IMG/VR virus record: IMGVR_UViG_3300042865_000689
Span: 1 to 20,913 of that record
Source: a virus
Direction: 5' to 3' (one strand)
DNA length: 20,913 bases
The notes beneath the pieces were generated by a model that was not told the DNA's origin, made no database searches, and saw nothing but the letters and a program-made list of their open reading frames with translations. The position numbers and the translations under genes are program-made. Positions 2,700 through 20,789 of this stretch are shown here, piece after piece (position 1 is the first letter of the stretch; every line of letters starts with the position of its first letter).

Positions 2700-5600
2700 T
2701 TAAATATTCTCAAACGAAGCACCTGTTGGGGTGATATAGAAAGTAATATCTATAAATTCTAACGAACGAGTTGGTTTAATATATATTTTACCTGTCAATT
2801 GGTTTCTATCCAAATCTGCAGGGTCTGAAGAAACCGTTACACGGAAATCATACAAACCTCTATCTCTTCTGATAGCATCTAATATTGGATTGACAGCATC
2901 TAAGAAATCTTGTCTTACTTTTTCGTCATTTTGTTCGAACAACAATCTAACTGAAACTGCAGATATAAGTTTTCTTGCTTGTAATAACAATCTTCTTACG
3001 TTGATTCTATCAAGAGCAGATTCTCTAATTTGCATAGTTTTGTTACCCCAAATAACTGTTCCTACATCAGAGAAAGTTGCGATTGGATTAATTCTACCTT
3101 TGTATAGAGTATCTCTTTCTTCTTGTGTAAGTTTTCTTCTCGCTTTGATTGCGTTAACAATACCTCTTGTATAACCTGCCGCAGCAAACCAAGGGAAAGC
3201 AATATTATCAGTTAAAGCTAAGTTTCTACAAACCTCAGCAGTTGGTGGTATATAGATTTGTGTATTGTTAACAGTATCTCTTGTTAATACCCAAGGATAG
3301 TAAGTTGCCGTGTAGTTAGAATCTATACCCGCAGTTTCTAAGTTATCAACAGCTTCTTGTGGATAAATAACATCAGTTTGTTCACCCGTTGTTGGTACTA
3401 ACATATTGTAGTCAGGTGTTGTTGTGATGTAAATTGAGTCAGCTCTATCAAATTCTATCATTTCTATTGCTGCTTCTACAAGGTTACTATTGTTTACATA
3501 ATCAATACCTGTTGTTACGAATACATTTATATTAACCGCTTCAGGATTTTGGAATGTTTGTTGACCTAACAAGTAAGCGTAATAGTCAGTATTAGCATAA
3601 TCTTGAGTTGTATTCCCAACTGTTATTGTTTTGAATGCACCCCATCCTGTTGCTGTTGGATATCTGAACGATGGACATGCACCTCTTAAATAACCACTTC
3701 TACCCAAAATAAAGTTATCGGCATTAGTTCTACGTTCTCTGTAGATGTCCCAACCATCGAAACCACCTGAGCACAAGAAACTAAATTTACGTGCAAATAT
3801 TCTGTAGTAAGGATTTGTTTCATCACTAGGGTCACTTGTGAATGTACCACTACCAACATAAAACTCAGCAGTACCACTTGTAGTAAACGAGTTAGCTATA
3901 GTAATACCTGAAGCGTCTTTATCCATATGGAAACCTTTTGTTCTATAAGACCAATCAGCCCCAGTAGTTGCATCACAGATACTTGAACCTGGTAAACGTT
4001 TTCCTTTGTAAGTGAAGAAATCAACATCGTAACCAACTGTATCAGAAATACCTAAATATGTTCTTCTAACATTGTCACCAGCACTTCTTAAAGCATCATC
4101 AGCACCTGAAGCTAACCCGAAAGGTGGATTGTATACAACTTCACCAGGGAAATCATATTTAGTTTTGTAAATTGGGAATGGTGATTTTGCACCAGCATAT
4201 TCTCTCATATTGTAACCAACGAAACCACAAGGTAAAGCATCGATTGGTGCATCTTCATTAATCTCTAACATTACAAATTTGGAGTTCAAAGCATATTCAC
4301 CATCTTTAGTTCCAATTTTTTTAGCTATGAAATTATTTTCATTAGGATTCATTGAACAATTTGTAAATTTCTCTAATACAACAGGATTTGAATCACTATC
4401 AAAGAAATCTCTAATTTGAACATCAAAAGTACCATTATTGAATGACATATTTGCCATAGAAATTTTTACTTCTGTATTTGCAGCATCCCCATCAGCTATC
4501 GTTGTAAATCTGAATAGATTAAATACTTTGTTACCTCTAAGTTCAGAAACAACCCATGGAGAAACTGGTGATTGGTATCTTTCTAAGTAGAAAGCTATTG
4601 AAGTTGCGTCTACCTCTTGTCTTGCATTTGGTAATGCAATCAAGTCACAATTCAAACCTCTAATGTAACCTTTTCTATAACCATAGTTTAATAATGATTG
4701 GAACCTTTCTTCTACAAACAATGGTGTTGTTGCTCTTGGTTTTGCAAAGTTACTTGAACCGAATACTTTAGCAATATACTTAGGGTCTGAATTAGTAAAT
4801 GATGTTTCGAAAGTAAAGTTATCACCATCTTTATTAGTAACATTAAGTGCAAATGTTGAATATGGATTTTTAGTAACCGCTGAATATGTGCCAGTACAAT
4901 CCATACTAACGTCAGTTAATCCACTGACCTCATATACGGCACCATTATCTGTACCATAAGTTGCAATACCTCTTGAACGTAGTGTTGCTATTACCAAGTC
5001 ATCATAATCTGTATATGCTGTACCACTATAAATGTATATGTTACCAGTTATACTACCACTATAACAATTAGTGATTGTACCTGTTTGAATTGTTCCTGTA
5101 TTACTTGTTGTACAAACACCACATGGGTCTGTGAAAAGTAAATTAATAGTCCAAGCTGAAGTTGCTGTCAAATCGTCAGATACTATTGTATATGATTTAG
5201 TCAAAGAACTAAAATTATAACCAACTGTTGTTGCCGATTGTACCACACCACCACTTGTTATACCACTTAATGCTGGGTTAGTACAAGCACTGAAATTAAT
5301 AGTCATTGCAGTTACGTCAGCTGTAGTTGCTGTGGATGGAAGACAAACATTAATTACATTTGTATTGTAATTGATTGCACCTGTAACTGTAGTGATAGTT
5401 GGAGAACTTACTGAGTAACTATAAAATGATGCACAATTTGATAACGATGATGTTAGTGTTAAACTATTAACATAATCGTAAAAAGAATAACCCGAATATT
5501 GACCATTTCCAATATTATCAAAAGTTGCATAATACCAAGTATCATTAACGGCTGCAGTATAGTCGGCCAAATCCGAACTAATGTTATCAACACCAAACAC

Positions 5601-6293
5601 ATTATTTTGAGAAGTGTACCCTGATAATAATGTATCAATAGTTCCACCTGATACTATACCAAAATAGTTTATTGATGTTGCTGATGTTGATGGGGTGTTT
5701 AAAATATTGAATAACTGATTTTTTATATCAGAATCAATCGTTGAGGTTGACCCATTAAATAACTCATATGTACTATATAAGTCACCCGATAGAAGTGCCG
5801 GTATTGATGTTGTGTATGAAATAGAGTTAATACTATTTGTACAACCAGTAAAATTGATTGTATAACTACTAACTTTAAATTCAACACATTGTGTAATACA
5901 ACTTACAGTTGAAGCACTTGAACAATCAAACCCAACAGTTGATTGGTCAACATTAGCAACCGTAGATATAGACCAAGAAGGTCCTGCATCATAACCTGAT
6001 AACCCAAGAATTCTTGTTACGAATAATTGGTTAGATTGTTGTAAGTATGCTTTGGCTACATAAGCGGCTTCATACTTTGGTATTTGAGTGTTTATAAATT
6101 TCTCAGGGGAAGTACCACCGAAATACGTTGTGAATTCGTCAAAGTTTGTAATAAAAATAGGTTCGAAGGCTGGACCTTTCAAGGTTTCACCAACAATACC
6201 AAGAGTTGTTACGCCCACACTTTGTGACACAAAACTTAAATCGACCTCAGAAGTATAGACACCAGGAGATACGAAAACTTTACTGTTTGACAT
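2700..6293 (-). CDS. Contractile tail sheath protein (T4 gp18-like) with a large insertion
   Basis: This is the subunit of the outer sheath that contracts to drive the tail tube through the host envelope. Residues 1-100 are typical of gp18: 'VFVSPGVYTSEVD', then 'GIVGETLKGPAFEP' and 'YVAKAYLQQSNQLFVTRIL'. Residues about 940-1197 form the conserved core and C-terminus: 'IEFDRADSIYITTTPDYN', 'YYPWVLTRD', 'AFPWFAAAGYTRG', 'LTQEERDTLY' and 'RINVRRLLLQARK'. At 1197 aa it is nearly twice T4 gp18 (659 aa). Most of the excess is residues about 104-475, a Ser/Thr/Asn-rich, beta-like stretch with 11 cysteines and a repeated motif TINF(T/S)(G/A)CTN (145-153 and 331-339). This part is probably exposed on the tail surface. 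The ATG lies about 30 nt after a box. The gene follows two joining-protein genes, the usual neighbourhood of gp18, and ends at a strong terminator. Confidence 0.95.
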   Translation of the reverse strand: MSNSKVFVSPGVYTSEVDLSFVSQSVGVTTLGIVGETLKGPAFEPIFITNFDEFTTYFGGTSPEKFINTQIPKYEAAYVAKAYLQQSNQLFVTRILGLSGYDAGPSWSISTVANVDQSTVGFDCSSASTVSCITQCVEFKVSSYTINFTGCTNSINSISYTTSIPALLSGDLYSTYELFNGSTSTIDSDIKNQLFNILNTPSTSATSINYFGIVSGGTIDTLLSGYTSQNNVFGVDNISSDLADYTAAVNDTWYYATFDNIGNGQYSGYSFYDYVNSLTLTSSLSNCASFYSYSVSSPTITTVTGAINYNTNVINVCLPSTATTADVTAMTINFSACTNPALSGITSGGVVQSATTVGYNFSSLTKSYTIVSDDLTATSAWTINLLFTDPCGVCTTSNTGTIQTGTITNCYSGSITGNIYIYSGTAYTDYDDLVIATLRSRGIATYGTDNGAVYEVSGLTDVSMDCTGTYSAVTKNPYSTFALNVTNKDGDNFTFETSFTNSDPKYIAKVFGSSNFAKPRATTPLFVEERFQSLLNYGYRKGYIRGLNCDLIALPNARQEVDATSIAFYLERYQSPVSPWVVSELRGNKVFNLFRFTTIADGDAANTEVKISMANMSFNNGTFDVQIRDFFDSDSNPVVLEKFTNCSMNPNENNFIAKKIGTKDGEYALNSKFVMLEINEDAPIDALPCGFVGYNMREYAGAKSPFPIYKTKYDFPGEVVYNPPFGLASGADDALRSAGDNVRRTYLGISDTVGYDVDFFTYKGKRLPGSSICDATTGADWSYRTKGFHMDKDASGITIANSFTTSGTAEFYVGSGTFTSDPSDETNPYYRIFARKFSFLCSGGFDGWDIYRERRTNADNFILGRSGYLRGACPSFRYPTATGWGAFKTITVGNTTQDYANTDYYAYLLGQQTFQNPEAVNINVFVTTGIDYVNNSNLVEAAIEMIEFDRADSIYITTTPDYNMLVPTTGEQTDVIYPQEAVDNLETAGIDSNYTATYYPWVLTRDTVNNTQIYIPPTAEVCRNLALTDNIAFPWFAAAGYTRGIVNAIKARRKLTQEERDTLYKGRINPIATFSDVGTVIWGNKTMQIRESALDRINVRRLLLQARKLISAVSVRLLFEQNDEKVRQDFLDAVNPILDAIRRDRGLYDFRVTVSSDPADLDRNQLTGKIYIKPTRSLEFIDITFYITPTGASFENI

Positions 6294-14436: not shown

Positions 14437-14473
14437 TAAAAAAAATCCCCACCTATTAAGAGTGGGGTTTTTT
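14437..14473. terminator. Bidirectional terminator between convergent genes
   Basis: A perfect 6-bp stem CCCCAC (14447-14452) / GTGGGG (14462-14467) is flanked by an A-run on the left and T-run on the right. Either strand therefore gives a hairpin followed by U residues. It serves the 92-aa gene (plus) and the lipoprotein gene (minus), whose stop is 1 nt away. Confidence 0.85.
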
Positions 14474-14474
14474 G

Positions 14475-14645
14475 TTACTTCATTACATAAGTGTTTTGTT
14501 GTGTTGGTGTCTTTTCACCCAAGTTTCTATTTCCATACCAACTACCATTTCCTGTACATTTTTTTCTTTTTTTGTAAACTGGATTACCACAAGATGTTAA
14601 CCCAATCGTTAAAATTACTAAAATTAAAAAGATAAGTTTTTTCAT
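14475..14645 (-). CDS. Small phage lipoprotein
   Basis: A 56-aa ORF with a clear lipoprotein signal: MKK, hydrophobic LIFLILVILTIGL, then the lipobox LTSC with the lipidated cysteine at residue 19. The mature part is only 38 residues, with a KKRKK patch, a second cysteine (C30) and 'CTGNGSWYGNRNLG'. The residue after the cysteine is glycine, so there is no inner-membrane-retention aspartate, and no acidic surface-export signal typical of Bacteroidota is visible; it probably sits on the periplasmic side of the outer membrane. Phage lipoproteins of this size include receptor-blocking Llp-type and Rz1-type spanins, but nothing here chooses one, and it lacks the proline-richness of Rz1. A TATTTATA box precedes the ATG by 10 nt and a bidirectional terminator follows, so it is a separate unit downstream of the polymerase. 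Confidence 0.75.
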   Translation of the reverse strand: MKKLIFLILVILTIGLTSCGNPVYKKRKKCTGNGSWYGNRNLGEKTPTQQNTYVMK

Positions 14646-17478: not shown

Positions 17479-18231
17479 TTACAAATCAGGAAAAATACTA
17501 TTAGTGGTTATGTCGAAAGTGTAGGAAATAGGATAAGTTACAGCTAAATTAGTGAATACTGATGTACCATCTAAATCCGTATAATCATCACCAGTTATAA
17601 CTTGAGCATATCCTATTGTTGTACCTGAATTAATTGTTATTGCTGATGTAATTGTAATACCTGTACCAGTTATTTGACCTAATGTATTTGTGAAAGTTAA
17701 ATCTAATTGATTGTTTAATTGTTGTGATGAAGTTATAACATAATCAACATTTACTGAACCTGATGTTACAATACTTGTTAAATTAAGATTAATTGTTAGT
17801 CCAGTTGCAGGGCCATTTATACAACAAGGAAACTCTGATACATAACAACTATCATATTCCAAATCATCAGCAATATAAGATTCTTGTACATTAATATATA
17901 ACTTTTCTCTAATAGGTAAAATTAATACACCATCAGAACTTCTTAACATAAATTGACCCTCGAATCTTCCTACTCTATTTGTGTCTCTATTTTGAAATTG
18001 ATAGTATAAATAATATTCAGGGTCAGCATTAGGGTCAACATTTGTTTTTTCAACAAATCCCGCAGGTCTCGATGTAATCTTTGGAACACCAGTCTCCACA
18101 TCCATCATTGAAAAGAATAATGCCGATTCTTCGATTAACGACATAAAATTATCATAATCCAATCTGCCATTCTTCACCACCTGAAGCTTAAGGAGGGGTA
18201 GGGTTGCGTTCTTTTTAATAAAGAATTCCAT
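17479..18231 (-). CDS. Beta-rich virion protein, possibly baseplate/fibre (BppU-like N-terminus)
   Basis: A 250-aa protein in two parts. Residues 1-118 ('FFIKKNATLPLLKLQVVKNG', 'SALFFSMMDVETGVP', 'YYLYYQF', 'GRFEGQFMLRSSDGVLILPI' and 'KLYINVQ') follow the strand pattern of the N-terminal domain of baseplate upper proteins that carry receptor-binding parts. Residues about 136-250 are Thr/Ser/Asn-rich beta sequence ('TGLTINLNLTSIVTSGSVNV', 'TTIGYAQVITGDDYTDLDG') resembling the insertion of the tail sheath in composition and short motifs. 'SCYVSEFPCC' joins the two parts. The family call is tentative. The ATG directly follows a 20-base box-leader identical to that of the gp13-like gene, which suggests shared, probably late, expression. 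No terminator follows, so transcription may continue into the polymerase gene. Confidence 0.55.
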   Translation of the reverse strand: MEFFIKKNATLPLLKLQVVKNGRLDYDNFMSLIEESALFFSMMDVETGVPKITSRPAGFVEKTNVDPNADPEYYLYYQFQNRDTNRVGRFEGQFMLRSSDGVLILPIREKLYINVQESYIADDLEYDSCYVSEFPCCINGPATGLTINLNLTSIVTSGSVNVDYVITSSQQLNNQLDLTFTNTLGQITGTGITITSAITINSGTTIGYAQVITGDDYTDLDGTSVFTNLAVTYPISYTFDITTNSIFPDL

Positions 18232-18277: not shown

Positions 18278-18856
18278 ATGGAAAAATTGATAAGAAAAAT
18301 ATTATTTGAGGAATTTTACCCTAAAAAAATCTATGTGAAAGAAATTTCCATAAATGAATTAAATCATCTCATTTTATTAAATGAAGGGTCAACAACACTA
18401 AAATGTAATGATGGTCTATTTAATTATGCTAAAAAAATAATAGAGAGTTATTACGATGAATTAAAAAGTTACAAATATAAAAGAAGTAGATTTACTGTTG
18501 AACAAACTGACCATTATTGTAGTAGATATAGAAGAAAGGACGAACCAGAAAACAAAAATAACCCTGATATATACAATCCTTTTACCACCGAAGGTGTCGA
18601 TTTAGTTTTTAAATCAATACCCTCAATTTATGATACGATTGTTAATAATAATTGGGATAACAAGAAAGAACTTTGTTTTACTATCAAAACAGATTCTATA
18701 ACCAAGAATGGGAAAATAGTACCATATACAGTCGCATTCGTTGTCCATAAGAATATCTTTGAAAGTAAAAGATATAGGATAACATTGAAAACTCAAATTA
18801 AAGGGGTTGAAATGCGTGATAAAAATTATGAGTATTGCGGTAAATATACAATATAA
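18278..18856 (+). CDS. Hypothetical 192-aa protein
   Basis: I do not recognise this protein. It begins MEKLIRKILFEEF, a short basic helix common at the ends of proteins in this phage type, and is lysine- and tyrosine-rich. A central basic, cysteine-containing segment reads 'EQTDHYCSRYRRKDEPE'. The second half has 'TTEGVDLVFKSIPSIYDTIV' and a beta-like end 'IVPYTVAFVVHKNIFESKRY'. No catalytic motif or membrane segment is visible. An earlier in-frame ATG at 18257 lies upstream of the box, so 18278 is the better start. It is divergent from the 250-aa virion gene and ends at a hairpin terminator shared with the minus-strand RNA region. Base composition is as AT-rich as its neighbours. Confidence 0.65.
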   Translation: MEKLIRKILFEEFYPKKIYVKEISINELNHLILLNEGSTTLKCNDGLFNYAKKIIESYYDELKSYKYKRSRFTVEQTDHYCSRYRRKDEPENKNNPDIYNPFTTEGVDLVFKSIPSIYDTIVNNNWDNKKELCFTIKTDSITKNGKIVPYTVAFVVHKNIFESKRYRITLKTQIKGVEMRDKNYEYCGKYTI

Positions 18857-18883
18857 AAAGGTGAGAATAATTCTCACCCTTTT
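18855..18883. terminator. Bidirectional terminator (192-aa gene / candidate non-coding RNA)
   Basis: A perfect 8-bp stem GGTGAGAA (18860-18867) / TTCTCACC (18871-18878) is flanked by AAAAA on the left and TTTT on the right. In the plus direction it ends the 192-aa gene. In the minus direction it ends in TTTTTATATT and would terminate transcription from the glycosyltransferase side. Confidence 0.8.
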
Positions 18884-19062
18884 CAAGTTTCCAATTTTCG
18901 TACTTTGGAGACACGCTGGTTTGGCTATATACCAGAGAGCCAATAGTCACCATCTTTCGATGTAATCAAGCTGTCTATCATTTTCGACTATCAGGAGTTG
19001 CCCACACACCCTAACTTTAAGGAAAGTCATCAACCAAGACCATTATTCTAACCCTTTATTGT
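18855..19062 (-). ncRNA. Candidate structured phage non-coding RNA, about 200 nt
   Basis: The 260 bases between the 192-aa gene and the glycosyltransferase hold no convincing ORF but a stretch clearly richer in G and C than its surroundings. On the minus strand it starts 5-7 nt after a good Bacteroidota-type promoter and ends at a U-rich terminator. Foldable parts are: GAUAGUC (18992-18986) with GACUAUU (18948-18942), including a G-U pair valid only on this strand; CAUC-GAAA-GAUG (18962-18951), a GNRA tetraloop only on this strand; UGACUUU-CCUU-AAAGUUA (19029-19012); UUGGCU/AGCCAA (18943-18938 with 18926-18921); and CUGGU/ACCAG (18935-18931 with 18920-18916), which crosses the previous helix. 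I do not recognise the family. It could instead be a structured 3' end of the glycosyltransferase mRNA, since no terminator separates them. Confidence 0.5.
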
Positions 19063-19066
19063 TTTA

Positions 19067-19097
19067 CAAAGATACAATCTCTTTATAAATATCCAAA
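19067..19097 (-). promoter_or_regulatory. Bacteroidota-type housekeeping promoter before the RNA, with embedded TATTTATA box
   Basis: On the minus strand TTTG (19097-19094), a 19-nt spacer, and TATCTTTG (19074-19067) match the known -33 TTTG / -7 TAnnTTTG pattern of the Bacteroidota primary sigma factor. A GATATTTATA box (19093-19084) lies inside the spacer, so host and phage forms of RNA polymerase could both start here. This is the only full host-type promoter I found in the window. Confidence 0.6.
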
Positions 19098-19115: not shown

Positions 19116-20789
19116 TTAATTTTCTTTTCTCAATTTTGAATCGTAATGGTCGAACCTATTGTGCTCGGTGGGGGTTAACAACAATAAACCAGGTTTAATT
19201 TTCCCTTTTATTGTTTCTTGGTAACAATACGACATGAGGGTCTGTTCGAATGGGTGAGCCCATTTTGTTTCCAAATAACATTTATAATTACCTTCTTTAC
19301 TTAAAACGATTGGCCAATTTGATAGGTAGATTTCTCCACCTACATATGGTACACCTTTATGAGTACTGATGAATTCAAACTTTGTTTTAGGTGCATTTGG
19401 GTCTAATCCCATCTGTGGAAGTTTTGGATTGTTTGGCCAATGTTTTTGTCTAAAATCTTGGGGTACATTGTACCACGCCCACTGTGTTCCATTGTCACCA
19501 TAAAACTCCGTATAATTTAGTTTAAGAAAATCGAACTTTTCTTTTTGAATAATCTCTAAACTTTTTTGATATAAGTTGATTACATATCTATTAAATCCAT
19601 TTTTACAAGTTTCATTCTTTGGATAGAAAAACATATCATCTTCCCAAAACCAGTAGAAATCTAAATCGGTATCATTAAAATGTTCGGCAACAAATATCCT
19701 ACCCCCCATTATGCCAATATTATCTTTCTTTATATGTTCAAATCCATATTGTTCACACAATTCTTTATATCTTGGTGTTGTTGATAAATCTGTTGAGTTA
19801 TCCAACAAAAACTTTCTTGGTTTGGTTATAAAATCCCTATCATATTCTAACATTGATTTTATTAAGGTCTCAAATTGTTTTGGTGAGTTGAATGTGATAA
19901 CATATAAACCCACCTTAGATATATCATTACTTTGATATTTGATTGGTTCAGGTGTTTCATTTAATACTTCCAATGTGTCGTTCTTCAAATCCTCAAAAAA
20001 CTTACCCATCAATCCATTACCCTCTATCATTGAATAGTTGATATGTTGGGGATATAGATAAGTCATTATTGTGAATATGGATTCTTCAGTGCCCATAAAT
20101 CCTTTTGATAATGAATCATTAAGTAACATATAATACAATGAGTTCATATCATTGATTCTTTCTTTTTTTCCACCAAAGAAACCACCCCTTGCAACTCTGT
20201 TTGTTTTTGTTTTGGTGTAATTATTCATCGCATTTATTTCAAATCCGTGAATCTCTGTACTTGTTTCATAAGGGAAACAAACGAAATGGAATCTATCTAC
20301 ATATTTGGGTAATTTGTCTAATACTTTATCGTGGGTAAAATAACCAGGATGAATTGTGTTTGTAATACCAGCATCAATCCAAAACATATAATCTGAGTTA
20401 AACTTATCCAATATTCTTGCATCATTTAGTAAGAACATTTTGGACATAACCAAAGGATTATACATTTCAAGTTTTGCTTGGGTTGAATCTTTTAACCAAC
20501 CAACTTGATTGTACCAACTTGGGTCTTGCCTAATCTTTTGTATCTTTGGATAGAACTCATTATTAATGAACCAATCTTTTGGTCTTATTATGAATTGTGT
20601 GTTATGTGAATCTCTTCTTTGTTCTACAAATCTTTGTAAGTCGGTGTCACCAAATATGATTAAGTTTACATCTAATTTGAGTAAACTTTCAAACTTGTCT
20701 AAATAGTGTTGGTATGTTCTTGACCATCCTTCAGTCAGTTGGTCCCTACCTATATCCCATAATCCTGTTACTAATGTTATATTATTCAC
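19116..20789 (-). CDS. Two-domain glycosyltransferase (HtrL/YibB-like plus GT-A-like)
   Basis: A 557-aa protein that probably transfers sugars to host surface glycan, phage DNA or virion proteins. Residues 1-270 resemble the HtrL/YibB family: 'ITLVTGLWDIGRD', 'LDVNLIIFGD', 'YMFWIDAGI' (the acidic WIDAG at 137-141), 'ARGGFFGG' and 'GTEESIFT'. Residues about 290-557 look like a second GT-A-type domain: 'VGLYVITFNSPKQFETLIKS', 'KKDNIGIMGGRIFVAEHF', 'WFWEDDMFFY' (the likely metal-binding acidic cluster, E383-D385) and 'HPFEQTLMSYCYQE'. The start is GTG at 20789, overlapping the 3' end of the upstream gene by 8 nt, so translation is probably coupled and no box is present. Its mRNA seems to run on into the RNA region, as no terminator follows the stop. 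The sugar and acceptor are unknown. Confidence 0.8.
   Translation of the reverse strand: MNNITLVTGLWDIGRDQLTEGWSRTYQHYLDKFESLLKLDVNLIIFGDTDLQRFVEQRRDSHNTQFIIRPKDWFINNEFYPKIQKIRQDPSWYNQVGWLKDSTQAKLEMYNPLVMSKMFLLNDARILDKFNSDYMFWIDAGITNTIHPGYFTHDKVLDKLPKYVDRFHFVCFPYETSTEIHGFEINAMNNYTKTKTNRVARGGFFGGKKERINDMNSLYYMLLNDSLSKGFMGTEESIFTIMTYLYPQHINYSMIEGNGLMGKFFEDLKNDTLEVLNETPEPIKYQSNDISKVGLYVITFNSPKQFETLIKSMLEYDRDFITKPRKFLLDNSTDLSTTPRYKELCEQYGFEHIKKDNIGIMGGRIFVAEHFNDTDLDFYWFWEDDMFFYPKNETCKNGFNRYVINLYQKSLEIIQKEKFDFLKLNYTEFYGDNGTQWAWYNVPQDFRQKHWPNNPKLPQMGLDPNAPKTKFEFISTHKGVPYVGGEIYLSNWPIVLSKEGNYKCYLETKWAHPFEQTLMSYCYQETIKGKIKPGLLLLTPTEHNRFDHYDSKLRKEN

Follow-up and report, generated by a model that had tools for sequence, protein, structure and literature searches.

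What is encoded in the stretch of roughly 200 nt between positions 18855 and 19097 of the viral DNA analysed here (20,913 nt, hereafter the window), and on what would its product act? A first-pass annotation had proposed a new structured non-coding RNA read from the minus strand. We are highly confident that the minus strand does encode a stand-alone RNA of ~200 nt that is conserved, contains a pseudoknot, has a promoter of host type and ends at an intrinsic terminator, whereas the answer to the second question is a tentative one.

The RNA Gene and Its Signals

The gene is placed at 18852..19062 on the minus strand, its start and end being inferred from promoter and terminator. Its homologues have ~70% identity and their matches to a covariance model of the RNA score up to 188 bits. 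The stretch had been described as lacking ORFs and as richer in G and C than its surroundings, and it is both: 18855-19097 holds no gene-sized ORF, the short frames that exist are disrupted in homologues, no conserved protein encoded there emerged from the homologue comparison, and the GC content is 0.41 (18884-19048) against 0.30 for the whole window. That the RNA codes for a short peptide (MVDDLP... in the RNA type of the window, type 1, and MSKKRxGNPNTSKDGDKEC in a second type, see below) is very improbable. Several homologues, and both copies of type 2, do contain short ATG frames, but this reading was rejected because the start or the frame is missing in two of the related loci (L011 and L091) and the frames end variably among the homologues; in addition, such changes as occur in the motif, few in number, do alter residues, and covariation tracks base pairs and not codons.

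The Bacteroidota promoter reported upstream is of the sigma-ABfr type (19067..19097, minus strand) and reads TTTG-N19-TATCTTTG, with the -33 element TTTG at 19094-19097, the -7 element TATCTTTG at 19067-19074 and an A-rich tract upstream, in keeping with the consensus TTTG / TAnnTTTG given for Bacteroidota (PMC7366714). It is the sole match in the window; as a control pattern gave 2 matches, a lone match is insignificant in 21 kb of AT-rich DNA, and the significance comes from its conserved position. The distance from the promoter to the conserved RNA start GGUUG is exactly 44 nt in six homologues, while the window copy carries an 18-nt insert between the two. L023 and L091 have other upstream sequence, without a sigma-ABfr promoter.

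The minus-strand terminator suggested downstream was also borne out (18855..18883), and consists of a perfect 13-bp stem with a T-tail. Shuffled sequences contain 0.7 terminators on average, so that a single terminator means little and what counts is its conservation, the hairpin being present in every homologue examined. The stem is flanked by an A-tract on one side and a T-tract on the other, and could serve both strands. Elsewhere in the window, a hairpin that has T-runs on either strand (14440-14480) lies between a plus-strand and a minus-strand gene and is apparently, judged by its sequence, a bidirectional terminator.

Distribution and Relation to Known RNA Families

Related loci (80) were gathered via the gene at 17479-18231. 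Homologues of the region were found by blastn and nhmmer in L008, L009, L011, L012, L013, and L023-L025, with L019 homologous in the first half only; a further homologue, in L091, was recovered by a pattern for the 5' motif. In five additional contigs the sequence is the same as in the window. The structure alignment comprises eight sequences from IMG/VR contigs, seven of them distinct. Against named phages, blastn of the region returned promoter or AT-rich matches only. An 18-base core pattern searched in 84,980 species gave 12 scattered matches that had neither promoter nor structure and were judged to be chance, and a wider core pattern hit 49 stretches of viral DNA, those new to the analysis being coding or chance. 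The RNA model hit none of 299 Flavobacteriaceae and 395 Bacteroidota genomes, but as the filters were strict and a positive control was lacking, this blank among 694 genomes is weak evidence of absence.

The RNA had been said to match no family that could be named, and a covariance search of Rfam 15 likewise returned no family at the gathering score, the best hit (E 0.083, at a homologue locus) reaching 27 of the 50 bits needed. ARAGORN detected no tRNA or tmRNA in the window, and readings as a group I intron, hammerhead, 6S-like RNA or tmRNA were dropped for want of a match in Rfam or ARAGORN. We take the structured phage RNA family to be real and new and, as far as sampled, restricted to phages.

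A Covarying Fold with a Pseudoknot

Folded as a single sequence the RNA is no more stable than its shuffles (z +0.74 for the minus and -0.68 for the plus strand), so the case for a structure is a comparative one. One consensus structure was written, with helices P1 and P2, P3 enclosing a P4/P5 junction, and a pseudoknot P6/P7. Standard pairs occupy 93.8% of the 226 cells of the alignment. The compensatory changes that were to support the stems are found among the seven distinct sequences, as double-sided changes at 13 pairs (7.2 in shuffles) and in 28 cells (9.5 in shuffles), counts that 0/500 shuffles reach, and the covariation score is 0.431 vs. 0.211 when shuffled, with 0/500 shuffles reaching 0.431. 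When the 3' partners are shifted by 1 to 3 columns, the covariation score falls to 0.02-0.10. This test is biased in favour of the structure because the latter was derived from the same sequences; more weight lies with the double changes in independent helices. RNAalifold, run unguided, recovered P1, P2, P3, P5, and P7.

The 5' domain (19013..19035, minus strand as for all elements below) is near-invariant, GGUUGRUGACUUWCC...AAAGUUANGG, and includes P1 (19024-19028 / 19013-19017), the pairs of which never vary and hence are uninformative. Being the most conserved part, and being kept together with the promoter in L019 where the body of the RNA has changed, the segment GGUUGRUGACUUWCC might be thought to pair with host or phage mRNAs as in a regulatory small RNA. 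We regard this as improbable, as the segment lies partly within P1, structural constraint on the remainder of the RNA goes far beyond what a small RNA scaffold requires, and the exposed A-rich loops would make poor seeds.

The P2 hairpin that follows (18993..19012) is 92.5% paired with double changes in two pairs and has the loop GAAAA in most homologues; by hand reading, its register has to be slightly shifted in the window copy. The three-way junction P3/P4/P5 (18943..18991; GAAAANGA...AAUACAUCGAAAGAUGGUGAC) is also found in the second RNA type. P3 (18986-18991 / 18943-18948) is 100% paired and shows double changes at three pairs, P4 (about 18968-18977) fits in only half of the cells, as its register shifts, and P5 (18951-18962), a GNRA hairpin CAUC-GAAA-GAUG, shows no variation in its pairs and is thus uninformative. 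Its loop is GAAA or GUAA in L008, L009, L011, L012, and L013, and longer or shifted in L023 and L091.

Downstream, two crossing helices near 18916-18943 had been left as either a pseudoknot or alternatives. P6 (18938-18941 / 18923-18926) has double changes in 3/4 pairs (GGCU/AGCC to GCCU/AGGC or UCCU/AGGA) and P7 (18931-18935 / 18916-18920) in 4/5 pairs (CUGGU/ACCAG to CUUAC/GUAAG or CCAGU/ACUGG). As both covary across homologues they form an H-type pseudoknot (18916..18941) and are not alternatives. A last hairpin, P8 (18891..18908), is a hand reading outside the pair counts, as is the motif ACGANA seen in its loop in several homologues.

The strand is fixed by the G-U pairs. In the minus sense 212 of the 226 cells pair compared with 184 when complemented; 30 cells are G-U and would be C-A on the opposite strand. 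Together with the mostly conserved GNRA loop, this agrees with the direction of the promoter, as the first reading had it from strand-specific features.

A three-way junction with invariant unpaired bases combined with a pseudoknot is a common architecture of active sites and aptamers. As the RNA presents exactly these elements, it might be a new ribozyme or a riboswitch-like aptamer. This too is improbable, since there is no match to a ribozyme family and, with a promoter of its own and a terminator facing a convergent gene, the RNA has no gene in cis to regulate.

A Second RNA Type and a Chimeric RNA

A search with the core ATACATCGNAAGATGGTG revealed a second RNA type in L113 (on a 318-kb contig), L116, and L119. 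It has the same promoter type followed by a junction, GUCGAAAAAGA-P4-AAUACAUCGAAAGAUGGUGAC, that is nearly identical to that of type 1 and is scored at 30-32 bits by the model of the window RNA. In L113 and L116 a pseudoknot equivalent to P6/P7 (AGGA/UCCU crossing GUUAGG/CCUAAC) comes next, and then a hairpin and the terminator; a script run over segments placed by hand served to check the helices of type 2, and the pair counts given above cover the type 1 alignment only. The 5' domain is absent from all three loci. The reverse is seen in L019, where a chimeric RNA (5158-5500) has a family-like promoter and 5' domain and the body is replaced. With type 2 lacking the 5' domain and L019 the usual body, the parts of the RNA look modular. 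The ORF that usually converges on the RNA is absent from L019, and the RNA is followed on the same strand by a 172-aa ORF (5408-5926) containing the motif TYHQRFERGG; this ORF is only weakly similar to the usual one, ~2% of shuffles scoring equally high.

The 318-kb contig (G033, with L049 and L113) carries many near-identical host-type promoters, TTTGG...GTATTATCTTTG, at ~64-80 and 150-186 kb, and from sequence these clusters have the look of an early regulon in a very large phage.

Type 2 RNAs likewise adjoin a convergent ORF, and this arrangement is conserved across two gene neighbourhoods, next to a DNA polymerase gene in L116 and elsewhere in L113 and L119. The type 2 ORF (AF2 model, pLDDT 30) has no detectable relation to the type 1 ORF beyond an N-terminal peptide, and homology of the two ORF families was dismissed as unsupported outside that peptide. 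It is therefore conceivable that the neighbour is incidental and that the RNA serves early host takeover, as a mimic or decoy binding host RNA polymerase, the ribosome, a nuclease or a defence protein. We consider this explanation somewhat unlikely, yet it accounts for the conservation of the junction in two RNA types despite unrelated neighbour proteins, and the strong host-type promoter with its A-tract, the complex rigid fold and the recurrence of the promoter type in early-regulon-like gene blocks of the 318-kb record would all suit it. On the other hand no host RNA was matched in the 299 Flavobacteriaceae and 395 Bacteroidota genomes (under the stricter filters, without positive control), no Rfam family was found, and the strict conservation of the neighbour is left unexplained.

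The Convergent Gene

In type 1 loci that neighbour is a plus-strand ORF of 192 aa (18278..18856) that ends at the terminator and has a predicted RelE/RegB-like (BECR-type) domain. Profile searching located the ORF in 15 contigs, and a match to the RNA model adjoins it in 15/15. The first-pass annotation had noted neither this tight association nor the type 2 RNA. Among 50 virus records every copy of the ORF is accompanied by the RNA, with the exception of a single contig that starts within the ORF. The gene upstream of the RNA, unlike the convergent ORF, varies between homologues. In the window it is 19116-20789, with an HtrL_YibB-type domain and then a second half without assignment; in L008, L009, L012, and L013 its homologue is separated from the RNA by an unrelated gene that runs on the opposite strand.

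The convergent ORF has no Pfam match and no convincing family match. Its AF2 model (pLDDT 83.8) consists of helices followed by an antiparallel sheet. In a structural ranking RelE/HigB proteins (HigB2-type) and CDI toxins took ranks 1-8 with Z 3.6-4.6, values that are middling by the tool's own scale, and the other rows, all at 3.1 or below, were taken as background. The Foldseek list against the PDB had no E under 0.001 and was likewise regarded as background. In a viral library, T4-type RegB was among the top Foldseek matches (probability 1.00, E 6e-4, TM 0.37-0.49). The order of elements in the predicted fold, helices plus a four-stranded sheet, agrees with RegB/BECR, though the scores are weak. 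ToxN-like (MazF/Kid) folds were missing from the structural ranking, and absence from such a list is not exclusionary. By prediction, the convergent protein may share a fold class with T4 RegB, an early endoribonuclease, to which it has no significant sequence similarity. The catalytic histidines of T4 RegB are H48 and H68 (PMC3014915). A profile comparison aligned the invariant His of the ORF with H48 at E 0.14; no counterpart of H68 was seen, and the alignment of ORF homologues showed no second invariant His. On these models the product of the convergent ORF likely has an RNase-like fold.

The N-terminus of the convergent protein is a predicted capsid-targeting-like helix. A peptide of the type M-x-x-LIRKILREE, which recalls the T4 capsid-targeting peptide CTS (PMC9026906), is common to otherwise unrelated proteins, namely those encoded at 106-993 and 18278-18856 of the window, at 2954-3547 and 6932-7417 of L113 and at 8071-8562 of L116. 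Going by this shared peptide, several proteins of such phages may be packaged and injected. As for other genes of the window, 1055-2611, which adjoins the tail sheath gene, is predicted to encode an HNH/homing endonuclease (phrog_3339) and has a weak, sub-threshold Mom-like match at its C-terminus.

A Possible Partnership Between RNA and Protein

The explanation we favour is that an early, protein-binding phage RNA partners or restrains the convergent RNase-like protein, although we hold this mechanism as a whole with somewhat less than even confidence. Host RNA polymerase would, from established knowledge, transcribe the RNA early in infection without a phage factor. The RNA would then fold as a rigid body made up of the 5' hairpins, the GNRA-capped three-way junction and the H-type pseudoknot. 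As the constraint lies on this three-dimensional body, the RNA may be expected to act by binding protein, not by base-pairing or coding. Its likeliest partner would be the tail-to-tail RNase-like protein; the RNA might keep this protein inactive, set its timing or steer it, by analogy with the pseudoknot RNA antitoxins that restrain their RNases. The capsid-targeting-like N-terminus would allow the RNase-like protein to be injected with the genome, to be limited subsequently by the early RNA.

Several observations point to this partnership. The RNA lies beside the ORF in all contigs that have the latter, and type 2 RNA also travels with a convergent ORF of its own; P3, P6, and P7 covary, the promoter spacing is conserved, and type 2 RNA has the same promoter type; and the predicted fold of the ORF is nearest to RelE/HigB and RegB. 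There is also precedent: the RNase toxins of type III systems are inhibited by RNAs with a pseudoknot (PMC5086642), and direct binding of a folded non-coding RNA inhibits AbiF (PMC12373285). On the other hand, RNA and ORF may be adjacent through vertical descent and their common use of a bidirectional terminator, L019 has retained the promoter and the 5' domain without the usual ORF, the fold matches are weak, and the convergent layout differs from that of type III toxin-antitoxin loci. The main point against the partnership is the unrelated ORF beside type 2 RNA: as the junction is near-identical there, it can be argued that the junction does not recognise the convergent protein, and a target in the host stays close as an explanation. 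The narrower proposal, in which the pseudoknot RNA is dedicated to a RegB/RelE-type phage RNase as its antitoxin or guide and acts from a convergent locus, is rather unlikely.

Relation to Known Systems and Outlook

The type III toxin-antitoxin RNAs (ToxI, CptI, AntiQ) resemble the present RNA in that an H-type pseudoknot RNA lies beside an RNase-like gene in a phage context. However, tandem repeats were not found here, and the RNA is convergent with its own promoter, whereas a type III RNA lies upstream in the toxin operon with a terminator between; furthermore ToxN of type III is MazF/Kid-like (PMC5086642), while the fold predicted here ranks with RelE/HigB/RegB. Pseudo-ToxI of phage PhiTE is a phage-borne pseudoknot RNA that acts on an RNase (PMC3475682); the present RNA has no repeat units and no sequence match, and the RNase-like gene is on the phage itself. 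The abiF RNA (RF03085) and Abi_2 protein systems, which occur in prophages (PMC12373285), similarly combine a structured RNA and its terminator with an adjacent protein gene, but the present RNA has no covariance match to RF03085, is convergent and pseudoknotted, and adjoins an ORF without Pfam match. Like the ornate RNAs GOLLD and ROOL it is stand-alone, structured and carried by phages; these are several times larger, and the RNA studied here has no Rfam match.

With a covariation-supported pseudoknot, absence from Rfam and a distribution restricted to phages as sampled, the RNA, carried by viruses of Bacteroidota-type bacteria, constitutes a new family in its own right. If it were such a dedicated antitoxin or guide, RNA and protein would form a pair that differs from the type III systems in the fold of the toxin, the architecture of the RNA and the layout of the genes. 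A review on T4 RegB describes no RNA partner, and raises and leaves open whether the enzyme has an anti-RegB partner (PMC3014915); the RNA would be an RNA counterpart to the partner speculated on there. The strict pairing of the RNA with an RNase-like gene makes it testable whether phages match RegB/RelE-type RNases with RNA partners.
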